Shown here: in pieces, positions 16,727-27,483 of the stretch
How the letters are laid out: each line of letters opens with the position of its first letter
Numbering within the stretch: the stretch's first letter is position 1
From: Ruminococcus sp. FC2018
GTDB lineage: Bacteria > Bacillota > Clostridia > Oscillospirales > Ruminococcaceae
Direction: 5' to 3'
NCBI RefSeq assembly: GCF_000621805.1
Contig: NZ_JHXH01000001.1
Location: forward strand, 1 to 64,000
Length of the DNA stretch: 64,000 nucleotides
Position numbers and translations under genes: made by a program
The notes under the pieces: generated by a model
Databases searched by the model: none
The model's input: only the letters and a program-made list of their open reading frames with translations
What the model was told of the DNA's origin: nothing

Positions 16727-17521
16727 TTAGGTTGTAGGAACTACATTGCCTGTGAATGTTACTTCAACAGATGTGCCCTGAAGTTTAGCAATGTTGTTTG
16801 TGTAAACGCCTTCATCATTTCCGTCCCAGTATACATAAATCTTAACTGTGCTTGAATCAGTCGATGTTACATTTGCTGTCTGGAGAACTGTAGATGATGC
16901 CGAAATGTCAGCAGCTGTTGTTGCTGCAAATTCCTGTGAACCGTTAGCACCTGCAACAAGAACTCTAACTGCATCTTCTGCACCTGTTGGTACATTGATT
17001 GTGCAAGATTTTACTCTGAGGCTTGAAAGCTCGTTGGAACCATCAGCTACTGCCAAACTAAACTCATTGATAAGGATGTACTCTCCGTTGTTAGCAATCG
17101 GAACCTTGGTTTTGTCAGTCATAGTATCTGTTGCAGAATCAGGGCTGCTACTATATCTGTAATACCAATCCTTATAATCTGTTGCTACAGCTGTATCTTC
17201 CGCTTCAATTGCAGTAATACCAACGGAACCACTAGGAGTAAATTCGTGAGCTGTCGGATAAAGCTCAGCCGAAGCTGTCACAGCATTATCACTAATCTTT
17301 TTACCTGCCTGAACTGTATCAGCGTCTGCAATACCTTGCTTAATCATAAGGAATGTAGCATCAGACTTTGCAGTTACACTCATTGATGTAGCTGTTACGT
17401 CCTTATTCATTGAGAACCAAGCGAATGTGGAGGAAACCAGCATTGCTGCGGAAACTGTGAGCATTCCAACTGCGCCTAACAGTTTTCTCTTGTTGCCGTT
17501 TTTCTTCTTTGTATTTGTCAT
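16727..17521 (-). CDS. TasA/camelysin-like secreted protein, probable SipW substrate
   Basis: A 264-residue exported protein. A Lys-rich start is followed by a hydrophobic helix and the sequence SSTFAWFSMNKDVTATSM, which resembles the cleavage region of SipW-dependent proteins such as TasA (cleavage just before or within the AWF segment). The mature part is Ser/Thr/Ala-rich with little Cys, and ends with a beta-rich module, IYVYWDGNDEGVYTNNIAKL, that resembles the W-x-GND motif in the TasA-like protein at 18796. The start is the ATG at 17521 after AAAGGGG. It is monocistronic, with a consensus promoter, a structured leader and a strong terminator, as expected for an abundant surface protein. 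A fibre-forming role is inferred from family resemblance only. Confidence 0.7.
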   Translation of the reverse strand: MTNTKKKNGNKRKLLGAVGMLTVSAAMLVSSTFAWFSMNKDVTATSMSVTAKSDATFLMIKQGIADADTVQAGKKISDNAVTASAELYPTAHEFTPSGSVGITAIEAEDTAVATDYKDWYYRYSSSPDSATDTMTDKTKVPIANNGEYILINEFSLAVADGSNELSSLRVKSCTINVPTGAEDAVRVLVAGANGSQEFAATTAADISASSTVLQTANVTSTDSSTVKIYVYWDGNDEGVYTNNIAKLQGTSVEVTFTGNVVPTT

Positions 17522-17554
17522 AATAAATTCCCCTTTCAAAAGAATTTTGTTTTT

Positions 17555-17634
17555 GTACCTTCCGCCATAGCCGAGCGGGGTACCGGTTAACTTCTTTCAG
17601 GAAACCCTAATAAAAATAATAATTTCCGTTTCCT
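17555..17634 (-). promoter_or_regulatory. Structured 5' leader of the TasA-like gene
   Basis: The leader of about 115 nt contains two stem-loops: AGGAAAC / GTTTCCT (17599-17634), right at the transcript start, and GTACCCCGC / GCGGAAGGTAC (17555-17583). A spacer of about 30 bases separates the second from the start codon. It may stabilise the message or act as a regulator. It does not match the c-di-GMP (GEMM) riboswitch pattern as I know it. Confidence 0.5.
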
Positions 17635-17642
17635 TGTCTTAA

Positions 17643-17671
17643 AGTATACATTCTTTGTGCCGTTTTGTCAA
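17643..17671 (-). promoter_or_regulatory. Promoter of the TasA-like gene
   Basis: Minus-strand TTGACA (17666-17671), 17-bp spacer, TATACT (17643-17648). Confidence 0.8.
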
Positions 17672-17859
17672 TAGGATTTTGGTATTTTGTTTCTTTCAGA
17701 AAACAAATTTGTAAAATATATCCCCAGCATTTCCCTCGTTTTGTGCAAAACGTATATAAAACGATTTCGGTCATTGTTGCATATGTTTGATTTGTTTAAA
17801 AAACTTGTCTTATTATTTTTAAAAACCATGCTTTTTGATGATAAATAATGCCATTTTGC

Positions 17860-17888
17860 TTGACAAATAGCACAAAATCAAGTATAAT
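17860..17888 (+). promoter_or_regulatory. Promoter of the EAL-like / surface protein operon
   Basis: TTGACA (17860-17865), 17-bp spacer, TATAAT (17883-17888). It diverges from the TasA-like promoter. The AT-rich stretch between them (17672-17859) holds no gene. Confidence 0.85.
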
Positions 17889-17949
17889 ATTTACGAATAA
17901 ATTATACTCTTTTAACTTATGCACATTTATAATAAGCGGGGTGAGTGGC

Positions 17950-18729
17950 TTGAAGGTAAAAAATACTGCGACTGTGGGCGGCCTTCGTGCGCTTGAACAG
18001 TATTTCCGCCCTATCGGCAACGCCCTTTCGGGAGAGTCCCTGGCTTACCAGTCCACCTTCCGTATGAACAGCCCCTCAAAAGGTGTGATCTTCCCCGGCG
18101 AATATCTGCCGGTGCTTGAGGCTTATCCCGACCGTGCCGCTGAGTTTTTGCCGCTGGAGTTTTTCCATCTGAGCGACACTATCGAGAATTTCAAGACCCG
18201 TGATATAAGCTACCGCTTTATTTCAATTCCTATACCCGTAAGCTTTTTAAAGCGTGACGACTGCGTTAAGGGGCTCCAGGAGCTTTCAAGCGCATTCCAT
18301 ATCCACCCCGATCAGGTCTGCTTTGAGCTTAACTCGGCTCTTTACGGCGAAAAGGACGGAACTGCGGTCAAGACTATGACCATGCTGCAAAGGGAGGGCT
18401 ATGCATTCATGCTCAACTCCTTTGGCGGCGACGACAGCCCTACAATGCTGCTTTCGGACTATCCGGTGGACTACGTTATGCTCAACGGAGTTTACACCAC
18501 CGAGGCAATGGTGGGCGATAACCATGAAAAATGGGTGCGCTCGGCGATAGACTACGTTATTTCTATTGACTGTACTCCCATAGCTACAGAGGTGGAAAAT
18601 GCCGCACAGGGCGACAAGATCGCCTCCCTTGGCTGCAATATGTGCGTTGGCGGCTATACGGGAGACTGGATGCTGCGTAAGTACATAAGACCAAGGACTT
18701 ACGAGGAAACCATGCAGCAGTCTACGTGA
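17950..18729 (+). CDS. Degenerate EAL-domain protein
   Basis: A 259-residue protein with the overall course of an EAL domain but without its catalytic signatures: AYQSTFRM takes the place of the ExLxR strand, NSFGGDDSP replaces DDFGTG, LNGVY replaces the KID strand, while ELNSAL and TEVENAA remain recognisable as the 'ELTE' and 'EGVE' segments. It is unlikely to hydrolyse c-di-GMP; it may bind it or a protein partner. The likely start is TTG at 17950, 5 nt after GGGGTGA; a GTG at 17941 in the same frame is possible. It is the first gene after a strong promoter, with the TasA/SipW genes downstream. Confidence 0.65.
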   Translation: MKVKNTATVGGLRALEQYFRPIGNALSGESLAYQSTFRMNSPSKGVIFPGEYLPVLEAYPDRAAEFLPLEFFHLSDTIENFKTRDISYRFISIPIPVSFLKRDDCVKGLQELSSAFHIHPDQVCFELNSALYGEKDGTAVKTMTMLQREGYAFMLNSFGGDDSPTMLLSDYPVDYVMLNGVYTTEAMVGDNHEKWVRSAIDYVISIDCTPIATEVENAAQGDKIASLGCNMCVGGYTGDWMLRKYIRPRTYEETMQQST

Positions 18730-18795
18730 CGTATATATAAAAACTGATTACACTATATATAATACAAATTATGCTGAAAGGAGGTATACTTGCTT

Positions 18796-19620
18796 ATGAG
18801 CAAAAAGGATAAGGAAAAGGCTGCTCAGACTGAGGCAGAGAACAAGGAACTTGACGAATCTACAGAGGCTGCCGTTAAGGAAAGCGCAAAGGCAAAGGAC
18901 AAGGACAAGGAAACTGCTCTTCGTGATGCCCTGCACATAAGACGTACAGCAAAGGAAGTCAAAAAGTATACCGTTCTGATGCGTGTTACCGGGCTTATGA
19001 CCGTTGCGCTCATCGGATTTATCGCTATCGGCTACGCAATATCCTATTTTTACAATAAGTATGGAAGCTTCACCATAAAGGTGAACAAGTACGACATGGT
19101 CAACCAGGGACTTTCCCTCTCGGAAACACCTGAGTTTGATAAGACCGTTTCGGTCCTCACCGCTGACATTGTCTACGATATGACCAACATAAGCGGAAAT
19201 GACCTGCCGGACAATATCGACAAGATAAACGGCAACCACAACGGACGAAACTACATTGCCTATACATTCTATGTGCACAATTCCGGTAAGGACACCGTAA
19301 CCTACGAGGGGGACCTTACGATACAAAATGTTACAAAGAATGTCGACGAGGCGATCCGTGTTGCACTTTACACCAACGGCAAAAAAGAGGTGTACGGAAA
19401 GACCAAATCCACCGGAAGCGGCAAGGAAAACGATTGCGACAAGGAATTCCTGACCTCCGCACAGGTAATGCACACCAAGGTCTCGGATTTTGAGCCGGGT
19501 GCTACAAATAAATATACGGTCGTTATCTGGCTGGAGGGAAATGACCCTGATTGTGTTGATGAGATCATCGGGGGAGTTATCAAGATGCAGATGGACTTCA
19601 GGATCGTGGAGAATACATAA
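18796..19620 (+). CDS. Membrane-anchored TasA-like protein
   Basis: A 274-residue type II membrane protein. Residues 1-55 are highly charged (Lys/Glu/Ala), one membrane helix lies at about 59-85 (VLMRVTGLMTVALIGFIAIG), and the rest is outside the cell. The outer part resembles TasA/camelysin: FYVHNSGKDTVTYEGDL, IRVALYTNG, and WLEGNDPDCVDEIIGGVIKMQMDF, close to the typical 'EGNDPxCxDxIxGG' ending. The gene is followed after 22 bp by a SipW-type peptidase, the usual neighbour of TasA-like genes. The start is ATG at 18796; TTG at 18790 also fits the GGAGG. It could be an anchor or starter unit for surface fibres; that is inferred. Confidence 0.7.
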   Translation: MSKKDKEKAAQTEAENKELDESTEAAVKESAKAKDKDKETALRDALHIRRTAKEVKKYTVLMRVTGLMTVALIGFIAIGYAISYFYNKYGSFTIKVNKYDMVNQGLSLSETPEFDKTVSVLTADIVYDMTNISGNDLPDNIDKINGNHNGRNYIAYTFYVHNSGKDTVTYEGDLTIQNVTKNVDEAIRVALYTNGKKEVYGKTKSTGSGKENDCDKEFLTSAQVMHTKVSDFEPGATNKYTVVIWLEGNDPDCVDEIIGGVIKMQMDFRIVENT

Positions 19621-19642
19621 ATTGTAAGGGGTAAAATTTATC

Positions 19643-20401
19643 ATGAAAAAAGCAATGAAAATCGTTCTGAGCGTTCTGGCGTGGATACTTCTGATCTTTG
19701 CCCTGCTCATCACCGTAATGGTGTTCACTTCGGACAAGAACAACGGAGTGCCAAGTCTGTTCGGACGTATGCCGATGACTGTTGAGTCGGACTCAATGGA
19801 GCCTACCTTCAAAAAAGGCGATCTTATCATCGCCAAGGAGATAGACGACATAAACGAGCTGAAAGTTGACGATGTCATCTCCTTCTGGACCAACGAGATA
19901 GTTGAGGGACAGAACGTTATCAATACCCACCGAATTGTGGATATAAAGGACGATAACGGCACAAAGGGCTTTATCACCAAGGGTGATAACAACGACCAGA
20001 ACGATACATATATCGTATATCCCAGCAAGATAATCGGTAAGTGGACAGGCAGCAGGATGCCGGTGCTGGGAAGACTTATGAAGTTCCTTAAGACCAAGAC
20101 AGGATTTTTGGTATGTATCCTCATACCAATGGCGATATTCTTCCTGTTTGAGCTGTTCAAGCTTATAATGGTAGTTATTCAGATGCGCCAGGGAAATAAA
20201 ACTCCTGAGCTTGATGAGGAAGAGATCAAGAAAAGAGCGATCGAGGAGTATCTTGCAGAGCAGAAGAAGGCTCAGCAGGAAAATGCCGGGGAGAAACAGG
20301 CTGAGGCGGAAAGTGAACATCCTGACGGTGAGGAAAGCTCCGAGCAGACACAGCAGCAGGCAGCTGAAGCTGAGGCAGAAACAGAAAACAGCGCTGAATA
20401 A
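19643..20401 (+). CDS. SipW-type (ER-type) signal peptidase I, first copy
   Basis: A 252-residue membrane peptidase. It has an N-terminal helix (about 7-28), the nucleophile segment ESDSMEPTFKKGD (Ser51), NTHRIVD with His96 in place of the lysine of ordinary bacterial leader peptidases, and GDNNDQND with the acidic residue. This Ser-His arrangement marks the SipW/ER type. A second helix at about 155-177 leads into a cytoplasmic acidic, Gln-rich tail of about 70 residues, which is longer than usual. The gene lies between the TasA-like protein and the McrB-like ATPase, 22 bp and 41 bp from each. Likely substrates are the TasA-like proteins encoded nearby. Confidence 0.9.
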   Translation: MKKAMKIVLSVLAWILLIFALLITVMVFTSDKNNGVPSLFGRMPMTVESDSMEPTFKKGDLIIAKEIDDINELKVDDVISFWTNEIVEGQNVINTHRIVDIKDDNGTKGFITKGDNNDQNDTYIVYPSKIIGKWTGSRMPVLGRLMKFLKTKTGFLVCILIPMAIFFLFELFKLIMVVIQMRQGNKTPELDEEEIKKRAIEEYLAEQKKAQQENAGEKQAEAESEHPDGEESSEQTQQQAAEAEAETENSAE

Positions 20402-20442
20402 TAAGGCTGTCCAAATCTTATAGAAAGGAAAACAAGGAAAAC

Positions 20443-22017
20443 ATGAGTAACTTTTTGGAATGGTTCTTTGTTTTTATTTCTGAAATTCTTAAAGGTTTTG
20501 CAAGTATTTTTAAAGGATTTTGGGAAGGAATAAAACAGATATTCAATATCAAGAATTATATCACCATATTCAAGGCTCACTCCGAAAGCTTCGGCGTTCT
20601 GGAGTGGATACTTGCTATCTTGTCCATAATCCTTGTTGTTGCTATCTTTGCACTTATCATATTTATGATAATCCTTGCTGTCAGAAAGTATATCCGATTC
20701 AGACATTCACTTGTCAGTGATGAGGATCTGCTTGAGGAGATAGGCGTGCTTCAGCGTCAGGTCCTGAAAATGACCAAGGAAAAAGACGAGATCATGGCTA
20801 TGAAAGTGGCACAGATGGGCGGCGGCTCTCTGGCACTGGGCGGCGGCACAGCAGGCGGTACGCTCTCTCTTGGCGACGGTCAGGAAGGAGAAGCTCAGGG
20901 CGAGGAGCAGACACAGGACGGCGTGGTCATCACAACTGTCAAGCGTTTCTCCAAATTGCTTGAGGTGGATAATTTCTATAAGACATATACTCCGCCGGAG
21001 TATGATAACACCGTTTCCCTTGAGCAGATCTGTGAGGATTACAGAAACTTCGCCTGCTCCAGAATGCACCTTTTCTACGACATTAAGACTATACGGCTGT
21101 TTATAGCAGGTATGGCTTCAACCAAGCTTATCATCCTCCAGGGTATTTCCGGTACAGGTAAAACATCTTTGCCGTACTCATTCGGTAAGTTCCTGGGCGT
21201 TGATACTACTATCGCCTCTGTACAGCCTTCATGGCGTGACAGAACAGAGCTTTTCGGATTCTTTAACGAATTCACCAAGAACTTCAACGAGACAGAAGTG
21301 CTCAAAAGGATATATTCATCCAGCTTTAACAATGACGTTAACCTTATCCTGCTGGACGAGATGAACATCGCCCGTGTCGAGTATTACTTCGCTGAAATGC
21401 TGTCCATCCTCGAAATGCCTAACGCAGACGAGTGGAAGCTGGACCTTGTTCCCAATGTTTGGAGCACCGACCCGGAGAATCTGGATAAGGGTATGATAAA
21501 GATACCGCAGAATGTGTGGTATATCGGTACGGCAAATAACGACGACTCTACATTTGCTATTTCCGATAAGGTTTATGACCGTGCTCAGCCTATCAACCTT
21601 GATGCAAAGGGTATCGCTTTTGATGCACCGGATACACCGCCTCTTACACTGGGATTTGAGCACCTCAACGAGCTGTTTGAGGACGCTTTCAAGAAATATC
21701 CTATCAGTGATGAGAACCTGAAGAAGATCCAGCACCTGGATCTGTGGGTAATCGAAAAGCTGAGAGTTGCTTTCGGTAACCGTATTATCAAGCAGATGGG
21801 TCTGTTCGTTCCGGTATATGTTGCCTGCGGCGGCGAAGAGCTTGACGGTATCGACTATGTAATGGCAACAAAGATATTCAGAAAATTTGAATCTCTGAAC
21901 CTTTCAATGCTCCGTGACGAGCTGAGAGACCTTTGTACATATCTGAGAAAAACCTTCGGCAGCAACAGTATGAAGGAATCTATCGCATACCTTGAGCGTT
22001 TGCAGAAGCTGTATTGA
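20443..22017 (+). CDS. Membrane-anchored McrB-like AAA+ ATPase
   Basis: A 524-residue protein. The first 90 residues contain an amphipathic segment and a strong membrane helix (about 62-85), followed by a Gly-rich linker (about 125-150). The AAA+ domain has Walker A GISGTGKTS (234-242), Walker B LILLDEMNIARVEYYFAEML (D305, E306) and a sensor-1 region GTANNDDSTFAISDKVYDRAQ. The DEMNxARVEYYF block is typical of McrB, the motor of the McrBC restriction system. No DNA-binding or EVE/PUA-like domain is seen; the N-terminus is a membrane anchor instead. The gene sits in an array with SipW peptidases and a TasA-like protein and precedes a possible McrC-like partner. The role is unknown; energy-driven export, assembly or a membrane-linked defence function are all possible. 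Confidence 0.8.
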   Translation: MSNFLEWFFVFISEILKGFASIFKGFWEGIKQIFNIKNYITIFKAHSESFGVLEWILAILSIILVVAIFALIIFMIILAVRKYIRFRHSLVSDEDLLEEIGVLQRQVLKMTKEKDEIMAMKVAQMGGGSLALGGGTAGGTLSLGDGQEGEAQGEEQTQDGVVITTVKRFSKLLEVDNFYKTYTPPEYDNTVSLEQICEDYRNFACSRMHLFYDIKTIRLFIAGMASTKLIILQGISGTGKTSLPYSFGKFLGVDTTIASVQPSWRDRTELFGFFNEFTKNFNETEVLKRIYSSSFNNDVNLILLDEMNIARVEYYFAEMLSILEMPNADEWKLDLVPNVWSTDPENLDKGMIKIPQNVWYIGTANNDDSTFAISDKVYDRAQPINLDAKGIAFDAPDTPPLTLGFEHLNELFEDAFKKYPISDENLKKIQHLDLWVIEKLRVAFGNRIIKQMGLFVPVYVACGGEELDGIDYVMATKIFRKFESLNLSMLRDELRDLCTYLRKTFGSNSMKESIAYLERLQKLY

Positions 22018-22037
22018 TGCGTTGATATTGCTGCAAC

Positions 22038-22080
22038 AAAATGACCTGCTTAGCTTCAACGGTAAGTCAGGTCATTTTTA
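22038..22080 (+). terminator. Hairpin terminator or attenuator inside the locus
   Basis: AAATGACCTG...CAGGTCATTT stem followed by TTTT(A), between the McrB-like gene and its downstream partner. The next gene has no clear promoter of its own, so the structure probably reduces rather than stops expression of the distal genes. Confidence 0.7.
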
Positions 22081-22106
22081 AAATCCAATAAAAAGGAGGG
22101 GAATGT

Positions 22107-24254
22107 GTGAGCGATTTTTACGATAAGTGGTATAAGAGTTTTACTGCCACAATGGGCGAGCTTGAAGATGACAGCCTGTTTGAGTCCATGCATTCCCTTA
22201 TTATGTCCAGCAGAAATACCTTTGCGGTAAACCGCAAGATAATGGAAAAATCTGTGGACGTTTCCTGGGTGGACGCAATAGAACAGGGCATGAAGCACCT
22301 TGATACGGTGCTCAGAAACCCAAGAGTCACCATCGAGGACGTGGGTGAGGTAGTTCCTATTGCCCTTTCCAGAAAAATAACTGTTGAGTCGGTAAAGCAC
22401 CTTGCTCAGCACACCGACCTTATACAGGATTACGACCCTGTGACAAATACCATTACACCATCCAAGGTGCTTAATGTCCATAAAGAGGAAAGTATGATGA
22501 CCTATGAAAACAAGTTCATCAATACCCTTGTGGACAGACTGTATGTGTTTATAATAAAACGTTATGAAAAGCTCCAGGAGGTCGCAAAGGATGAGGAGGT
22601 GTTCTCACTTTCCTATAACACAGACCTTGACGATAAAAACGGCAAGCAGATGAGCGTCAGTTTGAAACTGGAGACCACAGACAGCCTTGAGACTGTCAAC
22701 GAAAGCGGTTTGACAGTCTGGGAAAGAGTGGAGCATATCAAAAAAGCCATTGAGGGCTACAAAGGCTCGACCTTCTGCCAGACAATGGGTAATGTCTTCA
22801 TCAGACCCCCTGTAATGCGTACCAACGCAATAATGAAAAATGTTGACCTTAAAGCCTGCCTTACATTGTGGCAGTTCATTGAGGGGTACGATAAAGTCGG
22901 CTACGAGATAAACGTGGTGGACACAGCACAAAAGCTTGATGAGGATTATATGATGGATTTCTATAACCTTATCGCACTTAATTTCCTGCTGTTCCGATCC
23001 TACACCCATAAACCTGCCGATAAGAAGAATGAGCTTAAAACAGCCAAGCCAAAGGCGTTTCTGCCCAAGTTTCTCAAAAGGTTCAATAAGGACGATATGT
23101 CCAAGTACGACGTTATGGCTCAGCCCCAATCCCTGGGCGAGAGTGTCTATGACCACCAGGGAGAGGCAGGAGAGCTTAATATTGCCCTTCTTAACGAGAT
23201 AGACCAGGTCTTTGCCCTTGAGAAGGAGTATATCCGTGTTGAACAGATACGCACCGAGGTCGCCCGTATCGAGAGAGAAAAGGCGGAAAAGAAAAAGGCA
23301 GAGGCAGAAGAACGCAGGCTGGAAGCTTTGCGGCGTGAGGCTATCAAGAAAGCCGAAGAAGAACGTGCCGAGAGAGAAAGGATCCAGCGTGAGGAGACCG
23401 AGCGTCTCAAGCGTGAGTGGGAAGAAAGACAGAAAGCCGAAGCCGAGGAGAGAGAACGACTTGCAAAAGAGGCTGCCGAGCGTGCCGAGAGAGAACGACA
23501 GGAGGCAGAGGAAAGGCGGCAGCGTGAATATGATAACTTCCGCAGAGCTCAGCTTACAGCCGAAAGACTTGAGCAGGAGAGACTTGCCGCCGAGGAAGAA
23601 GCAAGAAAGCTTGCCGAGGAGGAGGCAAACCTTACTCCCGAGGAGCTTGCGGAAAGAGAACGCATCAAAGCGGAGAAGGCTGCTCAGGAAAAGCGGGAGA
23701 AAGCTCGTGCAGAGCGGCTGCGTGCGGAAAGAGAGATCTATCGCAGCAGAGATTTCCGCACAATTTACCTGGAGTATTCCAGAAGTCCTTGGTGCGTGAT
23801 ACGAAGATTTTTCATTACCCTGTTCAGCGTAATATTCCGCAGACCTTATGTGCCTGATGTGGATCCTAAGTATTACCGTGCGGAATATCCCAAGAAACGG
23901 TGGTTTGAAAGACCTATGGAGACCGCTGCAGAGCGTGACGAGCGTATGCAGATGAAGGTGTACTACAACAAGTATGCGGCAATGTTCCCGTATGACCTGA
24001 AGAGGACGATCAAGAACATAAAGTGGAAGATGAAGAAGAAAACGCCGCTTACCGATGCTCAGAAGGATAAGATCAGAAAGTCCATTGTTGTCATGACTCC
24101 CGAGGAGGAGAAGGCAGAGAACGCAAGGATCAAAGCTTTGTTCAAGGAATACCATGTGGGCATTTTCACCAAGATAAAACGAAAGTTCAAGCATTGGCGT
24201 GAAAACAAGAAACTGAAGAACGAAAGGGTCAATGAAACAGATGATAAAAAATAG
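22107..24254 (+). CDS. DUF2357/McrC-like N-terminal region with long coiled coil, partner of the McrB-like ATPase
   Basis: A 715-residue protein. Residues 1-350 are globular and include LNVHKEESMMTYENKFINTL (about 125-145), which resembles the 'YENrF' block of DUF2357 proteins, the partners of McrB-like ATPases. Residues about 370-545 form a Glu/Arg/Lys/Ala-rich coiled coil. The C-terminus is strongly basic and begins with an amphipathic, aromatic segment (WCVIRRFFITLFSVIF) that could lie on the membrane. I see no PD-(D/E)xK nuclease motif, which McrC-like proteins usually carry. The start is GTG at 22107, 5 nt after GGAGGGG. It overlaps the next gene by 23 bp. The family call is tentative; the charged coiled coil also resembles other scaffold proteins. 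Confidence 0.6.
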   Translation: MSDFYDKWYKSFTATMGELEDDSLFESMHSLIMSSRNTFAVNRKIMEKSVDVSWVDAIEQGMKHLDTVLRNPRVTIEDVGEVVPIALSRKITVESVKHLAQHTDLIQDYDPVTNTITPSKVLNVHKEESMMTYENKFINTLVDRLYVFIIKRYEKLQEVAKDEEVFSLSYNTDLDDKNGKQMSVSLKLETTDSLETVNESGLTVWERVEHIKKAIEGYKGSTFCQTMGNVFIRPPVMRTNAIMKNVDLKACLTLWQFIEGYDKVGYEINVVDTAQKLDEDYMMDFYNLIALNFLLFRSYTHKPADKKNELKTAKPKAFLPKFLKRFNKDDMSKYDVMAQPQSLGESVYDHQGEAGELNIALLNEIDQVFALEKEYIRVEQIRTEVARIEREKAEKKKAEAEERRLEALRREAIKKAEEERAERERIQREETERLKREWEERQKAEAEERERLAKEAAERAERERQEAEERRQREYDNFRRAQLTAERLEQERLAAEEEARKLAEEEANLTPEELAERERIKAEKAAQEKREKARAERLRAEREIYRSRDFRTIYLEYSRSPWCVIRRFFITLFSVIFRRPYVPDVDPKYYRAEYPKKRWFERPMETAAERDERMQMKVYYNKYAAMFPYDLKRTIKNIKWKMKKKTPLTDAQKDKIRKSIVVMTPEEEKAENARIKALFKEYHVGIFTKIKRKFKHWRENKKLKNERVNETDDKK

Positions 24255-24966
24255 GCTGAAACTTGCGGTAAAGATCTTTCTTATCGCATTGATCGCAGCT
24301 ATGTTCTGTATCGTGGTGTATGTGTTTGTGTGCAATATCCGAGGCAAGGTGGCAAAGATCGGCGGATACAGCGTAATGAAGGTTATAACCGGAAGTATGG
24401 AGCCGTCCATTCACGTGGGAGACTACGTACTGGTAAAAGAGGTGGATACCGATACGCTGAAAGTCGGAGACGTTATCACATTTTACTCCGATGATCCGGA
24501 AATAAAGGATATGCCCAATTCACACAGGATAATCGCCATTAACCCCGACGGCAGCTTTACCGTCAAGGGCGACGCCAATCCAAAGGCTGATGACTATACT
24601 GTAAAGCCTGACAGAGTGGTGGGCAAGTATTCGGGAAAGATATGGCTGTTTCGGTTTATCGGCTCGTTTGCGTCAAGCAGAAAGCTGCTGATGATACTGT
24701 TTATACTTCCCACGGTGGGAATATGTATATATGAAGCAAGGTCACTTATAAAGATAATCAGAGGTACCGATGAGGATGACGATGATGAACAGACCGACAA
24801 CACCGATGAGAAGAAACCAAAGACCGAAACGGCGCAGGAGAAAAAAGAAAGGCTTATAAGAGAGGCTATCGAAAAGGAAAAAGAGAAGCTTCGACAGGCT
24901 GATGCCGATAAGCTCAACGAAAGTGAAGTGGTGGATAGTGAATCAGGAAAAGATAATGAAGCGTAA
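24232..24966 (+). CDS. SipW-type signal peptidase I, second copy
   Basis: A 244-residue peptidase with an N-terminal helix (about 11-34), VITGSMEPSIHVGD (Ser55), NSHRIIAI (His98), GDANPKADD and VVGKYSGKIW. A second helix at about 155-172 is followed by a charged cytoplasmic tail (Asp/Glu/Lys-rich, about 70 residues). The domain plan equals that of the copy at 19643, but the sequences differ much, so this is not a recent duplication. It overlaps the genes on both sides (23 bp and 11 bp), which ties it to the McrB/coiled-coil transcript. It may process a different substrate from the first peptidase. Confidence 0.9.
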   Translation: MKQMIKNRLKLAVKIFLIALIAAMFCIVVYVFVCNIRGKVAKIGGYSVMKVITGSMEPSIHVGDYVLVKEVDTDTLKVGDVITFYSDDPEIKDMPNSHRIIAINPDGSFTVKGDANPKADDYTVKPDRVVGKYSGKIWLFRFIGSFASSRKLLMILFILPTVGICIYEARSLIKIIRGTDEDDDDEQTDNTDEKKPKTETAQEKKERLIREAIEKEKEKLRQADADKLNESEVVDSESGKDNEA

Positions 24967-25390
24967 GATGATCTCAGCCATAATCTGGGCGATCATCCTG
25001 CTTATAGCTTTGCTGGTCTTTATCGGGCTTTATGTGGATAAATCCGCAGAGGCACAGAAAACCTATAAAGAGAAATACAAGCAAAGTCTGGCAGATGCTT
25101 CCGAGGAGCTTGACACCTATTTCAGCAGAAAAATAGATTACGATCTTCACTATAATATGGTCATATCAGATCTGGGATCTGCAAGGTCTTTCGTTTTTCT
25201 GATAGATGATTATTCGGAAAGGCAAAAGGCGATAAATGAGCTTCACTACTGTTTTGTTAAATATCCAAAGCAGATGAAGACAAGGCTTGAAGCTGTAAAT
25301 CAAGGTCTTAAAGATATTGTTGATAACCTTGATAAGGGCTATGACGAGATCAGAGAAGTTGTGGATTCCATAGAGAAAAAAGGCGAATAG
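24956..25390 (+). CDS. Small membrane-anchored protein of unknown function
   Basis: A 144-residue protein with one N-terminal membrane helix (about 6-28, ISAIIWAIILLIALLVFIGLY) and a helical, charged outer or cytosolic part with a regular pattern suggesting a coiled coil. It starts at ATG 24956, overlapping the end of the signal peptidase gene by 11 bp (ATGAAGCGTAA). I do not recognise a family. The position suggests a structural subunit of whatever the locus makes. Confidence 0.7.
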   Translation: MKRKMISAIIWAIILLIALLVFIGLYVDKSAEAQKTYKEKYKQSLADASEELDTYFSRKIDYDLHYNMVISDLGSARSFVFLIDDYSERQKAINELHYCFVKYPKQMKTRLEAVNQGLKDIVDNLDKGYDEIREVVDSIEKKGE

Positions 25391-25403
25391 GAGGAAAAGT
25401 ACG

Positions 25404-25631
25404 ATGAGTGAAAAAAGGAAATATAAAAAAGAGATTCTTAAATGCCGCAAGACCATAGAGGAGATAGAGCGTAAGCGTTCACGTTCACAGTCGGCATTGG
25501 TACAGGCGATCCTCCTTCAGGAGGAACCGTCGGAAGCAGACGTTGAGTGGTTCAACAAGTATACCGGTGAGATCGATGCTGTGAGAAAGCATATGATAAA
25601 CACCCAGAAAAAGCTTGACCTTATCAAGTAA
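25404..25631 (+). CDS. Small coiled-coil protein of unknown function
   Basis: A 75-residue, highly charged, fully helical protein (SEKRKYKKEILKCRKTIEEI...TQKKLDLIK). It follows the previous gene by 13 bp with a strong AGGAGG site 8 nt before the ATG, and a terminator follows at once, marking the end of the locus. No family was recognised. Confidence 0.75.
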   Translation: MSEKRKYKKEILKCRKTIEEIERKRSRSQSALVQAILLQEEPSEADVEWFNKYTGEIDAVRKHMINTQKKLDLIK

Positions 25632-25641
25632 AATATTTCAG

Positions 25642-25673
25642 CCGCAGAGGTTATTTGCCCCTGCGGTTTTTTT
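25642..25673 (+). terminator. Terminator of the SipW/McrB-like locus
   Basis: CCGCAGAGG / CCCCTGCGG stem (25642-25666) with a run of seven T. Confidence 0.9.
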
Positions 25674-25675
25674 GT

Positions 25676-25728: not shown

Positions 25729-26226
25729 TTATACATCTATGCTGAAAACGTGGTCATCCATAACAAAACCGTTGCCTATGTCTGTGACCTGGTCTCTAAT
25801 GGCCTTCATTCCAAAGGCTTGGTAAACCTTTATGGCACCGGTGTTGTATCTGTTCACGGTGAGCCAGACGCTTTTCAAGCCTCTTTCACGGGCAATTCCT
25901 TTAATGTATTCAAACGCTGCCGAAGCATAACCGTTGCCTCGGTATTCCTTGTACATATAAAGTTTTGATAAAAATAGCGTATTATCCTTCTGGGGCGCAA
26001 TGGCAAAATAGCCTATCCTTGTGCCGTCAAGTACAAAGTTGTAGTATTCATACCCCTGGGCAGCCACCTGTTTTTTTATAGCGGCAAAAGACTGGAAGTT
26101 GTCGACCATGTAATCTATCTGCTCGTCGGAAATAACTCCGTCAAAACACTCGTGCCATATGTCGCTCGCCATTTCTGCGGTGCGGCGCAGCTTATGGTCG
26201 GTCTCGCATTTTATAAATTCAAGCAT
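25729..26226 (-). CDS. GNAT-family N-acetyltransferase
   Basis: A 165-residue acetyltransferase with the acetyl-CoA loop LYMYKEYRGNGYASAAFEYI and the C-terminal VWLTVNRYNTGAIKVYQAFGMKAI, typical of the RimI-like branch. The substrate is unknown. The start is probably ATG 26226, which overlaps the end of the upstream ATPase gene by 8 bp, so the two are translated together; GTG at 26235 is an alternative. Confidence 0.85.
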   Translation of the reverse strand: MLEFIKCETDHKLRRTAEMASDIWHECFDGVISDEQIDYMVDNFQSFAAIKKQVAAQGYEYYNFVLDGTRIGYFAIAPQKDNTLFLSKLYMYKEYRGNGYASAAFEYIKGIARERGLKSVWLTVNRYNTGAIKVYQAFGMKAIRDQVTDIGNGFVMDDHVFSIDV

Positions 26227-27418
26227 TATCCCCACATCCTTTCAGGTATTCAACAAACTGCTTTGCCACTCTTGGAGAACGTCCGCCTCGTGAAAGTGCA
26301 TAAGCCTCTGCCTGTTGGAAAAGCTCCTCCCGGGGCATTTCAAGTTCATACTGCTTTGCAATATCACTGACTACATTTAAAAACGTCTGTTTGTCGGGAC
26401 GCTGGAAAATGACAGTAAGACCGAAGCGGTCTGAAAGTGACAATAGCTCCTGTACGGTGTCCTTGAAATGTATCTCGTCACCCTGCCTTGCGGAAAATGT
26501 TTCCCTGACAAGGTGTCTGCGGTTTGAGGTGGCATAGATAGCCAGATTTGAAGCCGTAGAGGAAACGCTGCCTTCAAGAATGGCTTTAAGGGCAGCAAAG
26601 TCGTTGTCGTCTTCTGTGAAAGACAGATCGTCTATGAAGATGATGAATTTCAGCGGATTTTTGCTTACCGTTTCCACTATTGAGGGTATCTCATGGAGCT
26701 GTTTCTTTTTAAGCTCTATCAGCCTCAGACCCTTGCCGGCATACTCGTTTGCAATAGCCTTGACAGTGGAGGATTTTCCCGTTCCGCAGTCACCGTACAA
26801 AAGCACGTTGTTTGCAGGCTTTCCGCTGAGCAGAGCAAGAGTGTTTTTTATCACCTGTTCACGCTCAGCTTGGTAATTTGAAAGCTGGGAAAGCTTTATC
26901 GGGTCAGGATACTCCACAGGTCTGATGCTTCCGTCTGCCATGACAAAAACGTGGTAGCGTGAATAAATGCCGTAACCAAACTCGTTGATACGGTGGACCC
27001 TTTGTGCATAGACCTGTGAGAAATCCACCTTGTGAGTTTTGTACGCAGGCAGAAAAACATCAAGGTCAAGTCTTGCAGTCAGCTCGGCGCAGGGTATCTG
27101 AGAAAGCTCCTGGAGGGTCTGAAGCTCGTTTGCAAGGCAGTCCTCAAGGACACCTGCGGTGGGCAGACCCTCGCCTTTTTTCAGAATAAACAGATTTTCG
27201 TCCTCAAGCACAAGCTTCATCATAAGCTCGGTCAGGTCGTCTGTGTGTTGGTAAAGCAGGCTTATAAAATTGCAGTATTCCTCTGCAGCTTCCTGCTTTC
27301 CGCCGTTGATGCAGGCGCCTGCCGCACGTATAAAGCTTGTGAAAACTTTATTTTTATGCAGCCCCTTAAAGATAACAAGTGTCTTTGAACGCAAAAGCAG
27401 TTGTTTCAGATAGTCCAT
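26219..27418 (-). CDS. DUF815-family AAA+ ATPase
   Basis: A 399-residue ATPase of the DUF815 type. The N-terminal 170 residues are helical and family-specific; the AAA+ part has Walker A LYGDCGTGKSSTVKAI, Walker B FIIFIDDLSF and a sensor segment IYATSNRRHLV, followed by RSPRVAKQFVEYL at the C-terminus, all typical of the family. The cellular role of DUF815 proteins is not established. The ATG at 27418 follows AAGGAG. The gene is transcribed from 27484-27512 together with the acetyltransferase. Confidence 0.88.
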   Translation of the reverse strand: MDYLKQLLLRSKTLVIFKGLHKNKVFTSFIRAAGACINGGKQEAAEEYCNFISLLYQHTDDLTELMMKLVLEDENLFILKKGEGLPTAGVLEDCLANELQTLQELSQIPCAELTARLDLDVFLPAYKTHKVDFSQVYAQRVHRINEFGYGIYSRYHVFVMADGSIRPVEYPDPIKLSQLSNYQAEREQVIKNTLALLSGKPANNVLLYGDCGTGKSSTVKAIANEYAGKGLRLIELKKKQLHEIPSIVETVSKNPLKFIIFIDDLSFTEDDNDFAALKAILEGSVSSTASNLAIYATSNRRHLVRETFSARQGDEIHFKDTVQELLSLSDRFGLTVIFQRPDKQTFLNVVSDIAKQYELEMPREELFQQAEAYALSRGGRSPRVAKQFVEYLKGCGDNA

Positions 27419-27483
27419 TGTTTTCAGCTCCTTATTTGCAGGAGTAAATGTACGTTCCTGCAAAAATTCTTATTATTTACACT

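Follow-up and report, generated by a model that had tools for sequence, protein, structure and literature searches.

According to the main text of the paper on CoCoNuT systems (eLife 2024, RP94800, PMC11090510), the DUF2357 domain in established McrBC biology binds and stimulates the McrB ring, and the members of the NxD branch are classed as GTPases, none of them characterised. CoCoPALM systems are named there in one short passage that contains no test of function and promises a separate publication; our literature search retrieved neither an experiment on a CoCoPALM system nor a later CoCoPALM paper, and no paper joining DUF2357 with SipW. The literature on Ruminococcus with SipW or TasA, as judged by title, yielded nothing relevant. 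Among envelope systems, the Bacillus operon tapA-sipW-tasA contains no ATPase gene (PMC9674648).

The locus described here resembles the McrBC/CoCoNuT type IV restriction systems in pairing a McrB-like AAA+ protein with a DUF2357 partner, but it is membrane anchored and has envelope neighbours, no nuclease domain was found, and no modified-base or RNA-binding domain was seen. With the B. subtilis tapA-sipW-tasA operon it shares a SipW-type peptidase and TasA-like proteins; on the other hand, that operon has neither an NTPase nor a McrC-like gene, and sequence similarity to TasA is undetectable. Its features agree with the published CoCoPALM description, as given in the passage cited above. Overall, we consider it probable that the locus belongs to an envelope system of the CoCoPALM type conserved in Clostridia, a nucleotide-driven platform for processing, assembling or anchoring TasA-like fibres. 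The most likely task of this McrBC relative is thus to build or anchor fibres at the surface, not to defend against phages.

The locus lies at positions 16727-25674 of the window, by which we mean the whole analysed stretch of 64,000 nt on contig NZ_JHXH01000001.1 of Ruminococcus sp. FC2018. A single co-directional run on the plus strand (17974-25631) comprises the genes for an EAL-domain protein, a TasA-like anchor, SipW1, the AAA+ protein, the DUF2357 protein, SipW2 and two small proteins, SM1 and SM2; a divergent gene for a secreted TasA-like protein (16727-17521, minus strand), with its own promoter-like site and hairpin terminator, adjoins this operon. The run is preceded by a candidate sigma-70-like promoter, TTGACA-17-TATAAT (17860-17888, plus strand), a consensus match scoring 12/12, of a kind no commoner in the real sequence than in shuffled ones. 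Given this promoter-like site, the start of the EAL gene probably lies at about 17941-17974 and not at 17848. An intrinsic terminator, a GC hairpin followed by T7 (25642-25674, plus strand), was read by eye, as the loop limit of the consensus scan kept that scan from detecting it. The packed plus-strand genes that the preliminary description had placed between 18796 and a terminator at 25642 are all present, in that order and at those coordinates, and the two overlaps by which it tied the McrC-like gene to the second peptidase were confirmed: 23 bp between the McrC-like gene and SipW2 (24232-24254) and, taking the later ATG, 11 bp between SipW2 and SM1 (24956-24966). SM1 (24956-25390, plus strand) is a small protein with one N-terminal TM helix, conserved beside SipW2; SM2 (25404-25631, plus strand), a small charged helical protein of 75 aa, is conserved at the end of the operon. 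Next to the locus, on the opposite strand (26219-27463), lies an ordinary gene for a DUF815 AAA ATPase (PF05673, 6.6e-88), probably unrelated to the operon.

The AAA+ protein (20443-22017, plus strand) has one strong TM helix (residues about 62-80) and retains the Walker A (GISGTGKT), Walker B (LLDEMN) and NNDD motifs. When a profile built from 23 relatives was searched against the PDB, E. coli McrB was the sole match (1.6e-5). The NNDD motif, at residues 365-368 of the window protein, is found in all 118 full-length proteins, none of which matches the NxxD-type GTPase motif of McrBC restriction systems (0/118). After the TM helix comes a conserved stretch, charged and helix-like, that is a putative counterpart of the FtsB-like coiled coil of CoCoPALM; the NNDD motif together with the TM helix thus parallels the CoCoPALM architecture given in that main text, an NxD McrB-like domain fused to TM and coiled coil. 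Since NNDD is an NxD variant, which in the CoCoNuT paper counts as a signature of GTPases, ATP as the driving nucleotide is unproven, and the term nucleotide-driven is used here.

The McrC-like partner (22107-24254, plus strand) consists of a DUF2357 core (Pfam E 9.5e-7, above the cut-off) and a long coiled coil. An AF2 model was computed using 36 relatives; its residues 48-266 align with each of the four McrC structures listed, with Z of 8.6-9.0. The matched part corresponds to E. coli McrC 34-191, that is, to the DUF2357 part, and ends at McrC residue 191, with the nuclease lying outside. The rest of the model is long helix or of low confidence, and the long helices (354-576) beside the DUF2357 core agree with the coiled coil mentioned for the McrC homologue in the CoCoPALM passage. 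Compared with the PDB by sequence, this protein gave coiled-coil or TM matches only. The Pfam search detected neither PF04411 nor PF10117 in the window protein, a result with which a strongly degenerate nuclease fold would be compatible, and no nuclease domain occurs among the listed Pfam families of 36 McrC-like partners.

The two ER-like SipW-type signal peptidases, SipW1 (19643-20401, plus strand) and SipW2 (24232-24966, plus strand), match TIGR02228 above its cut-off (5.6e-31 and 2.2e-27, respectively), while the SipW equivalog model scores below its own. Both keep the Ser-His-Asp of ER-type signal peptidase I, as does the upstream SipW copy across loci (Ser 109/112, His 112/112, Asp 108/112). 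Among distinct loci in which a DUF2357 neighbour was called, the McrC-like protein and SipW2 form one polypeptide in 23 of 112. The fusion is seen in many Ruminococcus, R. albus and R. flavefaciens among them, and in isolate genomes; in the fused copies each of the three residues is kept in 23/23. The cytosolic tail of SipW1 carries the motif IKKRAIEEYL, conserved in 77/196 of these SipW proteins and possibly a docking helix.

The TasA-like anchor (18796-19620, plus strand) has a cytosolic tail, one TM helix and an extracellular jelly-roll-like domain with no obvious SipW site. In its AF2 model (pLDDT 84) a long membrane-crossing helix is followed by a beta domain, for which the TasA fibre 8aur ranked first in the structural search (Foldseek E 7e-4, prob 0.99) and the archaeal bundling pili (AbpA) second by Foldseek. 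The similarity to the TasA fibre is modest (VIA Z 7.0, where the tool advises caution under 8; 129 residues aligned, rmsd 3.1), and comparison with the PDB by sequence returned coiled-coil or TM matches only, with no detectable similarity to TasA. The TasA-like assignment has no Pfam match behind it and is supported by fold and by the signal-peptide motif, which the motif search found in the 16727-17521 product (SAAMLVSSTFAWFSMNK) and in most TasA-like neighbours and which the anchor itself lacks. The 16727-17521 product is the only close copy in the genome. As judged by a home-made regular expression, SipW-type signal motifs occur in 64/168 neighbours of the membrane AAA+ gene versus 2/105 beside soluble AAA+ genes. 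In several loci very large proteins of 1,400-2,000 aa with such motifs lie between TasA-like genes and SipW (L065:10724-14974, L068:11734-17601 and L067); those tested mostly lack Pfam domains, and they are candidate fibre tips or adhesins.

These neighbours bear on a reading of the locus as regulated proteolysis or quality control, in which the AAA+ protein and its partner would regulate or feed SipW, for example by extracting misprocessed surface proteins, and no fibre would be built. That the McrC-like protein can be fused directly to SipW2 is in its favor, as are the frequent partnership of AAA+ proteins with proteases and a substrate range that includes very large secreted proteins besides the TasA-like ones. 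We nevertheless regard it as unlikely: among the substrate-like genes, the one for a TasA-like anchor is the most constant, and signal peptidases normally have no need of an ATPase.

Neighbourhoods were counted with purpose-made HMMs and a gene caller supplemented by a six-frame search, over loci sampled from the order to the class, and genome-wide numbers come from searches of genome collections. The 123 membrane-AAA+ loci represent 116 distinct loci at 99.5%, 93 clusters at 90% and 22 clusters at 70% identity. A SipW gene is present on the same strand in all 123, in line with the signal-peptidase-family neighbours given in the CoCoPALM passage, and 103 have two or more. One locus apparently devoid of SipW (L093) proved to be a gene-calling error, the gene being recovered by the six-frame search. 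TasA-like genes are found in 109 of the 123 loci and were not seen within the stretch read in the other 14, partly owing to short contigs. In the named loci, the gene directly before the AAA+ gene is SipW in 74/75, and the gene directly after it is DUF2357, likewise in 74/75. A divergent class-level group (L214, L215, L216) has three SipW genes and small exported proteins around the membrane AAA+ gene, some with YAK/YAW-type signal motifs.

At the genus level, the AAA+ protein and the TasA-like anchor are both present in the same 25 of 29 genomes and both absent from the other 4. The AAA+ query is matched, at any distance, in 53/396 genomes of the order and in 38/392 of the class; in the phylum sample, matches outside the class cover the AAA+ domain and, a few marginal ones aside, leave out the membrane part. 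The arrangement occurs in many gut Clostridia besides rumen Ruminococcus. Named hosts include R. albus 8 and KH2T6, R. flavefaciens, Eubacterium ruminantium and E. xylanophilum, along with many ruminant-gut genomes. The recurrence of the gene order in 22 clusters at 70% identity makes the neighbourhood more than a product of chance. McrBC pairs are generally common and often reside in variable genome regions, which might suggest that such a pair, unrelated to its neighbours, landed by chance in an otherwise ordinary tapA-sipW-tasA-like operon; against the order kept across those clusters, the gene fusion and the joint presence or absence, this reading has next to no credibility. A chance neighbourhood is ruled out by the conserved order, the McrC-SipW2 fusion and SipW in 123/123 loci.

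We also asked whether McrB/DUF2357 pairs of this kind lie away from SipW, as the preliminary description had suggested checking. Membrane-anchored pairs never do (SipW in 123/123); the pairs that do (0/18 with SipW) are soluble and sit on other branches of the tree. The six-frame search likewise found TasA-like genes in 0/18 of the soluble-AAA+ loci. The tree calls for two switches between the membrane and soluble forms of AAA+, and a single switch is also compatible with it. In the nearest soluble branch a tandem AAA+-DUF2357-AAA+ is often followed by membrane-anchored transglutaminase-core and AgI/II-like surface proteins, so that this branch looks envelope-related too. For example, L094, L096, L219 and L222 have soluble NxD AAA+ genes, often as AAA-DUF2357-AAA, followed by large surface proteins of the transglutaminase-core/AgI-II-like kind, which constitutes a second envelope-linked McrBC-like arrangement; to our knowledge, it has not been described. 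Only deeper relatives keep a PD-(D/E)XK nuclease (DUF2357 with PDDEXK_7); they match the PADLOC candidate PDC-M26 and lack SipW. The simplest history would be a restriction-type ancestor that lost its nuclease and was then recruited to the envelope.

This ancestry in McrBC and CoCoNuT, together with the match of the AAA+ protein to the PADLOC candidate PDC-M26A (8.7e-39), could speak for a membrane-linked anti-phage defence, the McrB/McrC pair sensing an intruder and SipW or TasA-like proteins acting at the membrane. Such a reading is very improbable, as no nuclease or other effector was found at the locus, the McrC-like partner has no PADLOC match, the locus is present in 25 of the 29 genomes of the genus, and it is the deep restriction-like relatives without SipW that keep PDDEXK_7. 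Of the two options in the preliminary description, an ATP-driven fibre system or a membrane-linked defence system, the fibre branch is supported by the neighbourhood (SipW 123/123, TasA-like genes 109/123), and the defence alternative, with no nuclease and no PADLOC match for the partner, was not borne out; a defence role of the locus is unlikely.

The EAL protein of the window (17974-18729, with a start possibly anywhere in 17941-17974, plus strand; Pfam EAL 1.3e-25) is catalytically degenerate: the motifs of active phosphodiesterases (EAL, DDFG, AEGVE, QG) are lost, as they almost always are in 70 short relatives. The 31 long EAL proteins in the loci mostly keep the catalytic motifs, and many are encoded downstream of the operon in other families; a long protein of about 740-790 aa lies just downstream in several of them (L065, L066, L067, L068, L071, L154, L172). 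Judging from these motifs, the degenerate upstream and the long downstream protein might form a c-di-GMP sensor/phosphodiesterase pair.

In the fibre platform that we favor, an AAA+ hexamer would form beneath the membrane, with the DUF2357 partner acting, by analogy with McrBC, as its activator or stalk, whose coiled coil would pass force or signal to SipW2 as well as to the membrane. TasA-like subunits would be released by the two SipW peptidases, and the uncleaved TasA-like anchor would serve as the base; nucleotide hydrolysis would thus gate or drive the steps by which TasA-like surface fibres are processed, assembled or anchored. A possible role of the degenerate EAL protein is to report a signal such as c-di-GMP or one like it. 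The exact role of the motor in the platform we infer, with assembly or anchoring of the TasA-like subunits as our first choice over gating or clearing. Several points count against a fibre platform: a motor is not obviously needed, since Bacillus tapA-sipW-tasA does without an ATPase gene (PMC9674648), the TasA likeness is modest and one of fold only, and 14 of the 123 loci show no TasA-like gene in the stretch read. A bolder version is put forward tentatively: an energised Gram-positive machine whose nucleotide-driven motor, of restriction-enzyme descent, would assemble TasA-like fibres of the donor-strand type by way of a membrane complex with the McrC-like stalk joined to the signal peptidase.

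The main text of the CoCoNuT paper mentions no TasA-like anchor or substrates, no second SipW, no McrC-SipW fusion, no EAL pair and no joint gain or loss. To its CoCoPALM passage the present analysis adds the TasA-like link, two catalytically conserved SipW peptidases and the McrC-SipW2 fusion, as well as the nuclease absence, the sharp separation of membrane-anchored from soluble relatives and the coupled gain and loss of AAA+ and anchor. A named but uncharacterised McrBC-like branch thereby gains a concrete, testable non-defence role, with TasA-like proteins as its likely substrates and SipW, by virtue of the gene fusion, as its partners. The system is thereby located in rumen bacteria that degrade fibre and grow in culture (R. 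albus, R. flavefaciens, Eubacterium ruminantium), a setting in which attachment to surfaces matters for digestion.
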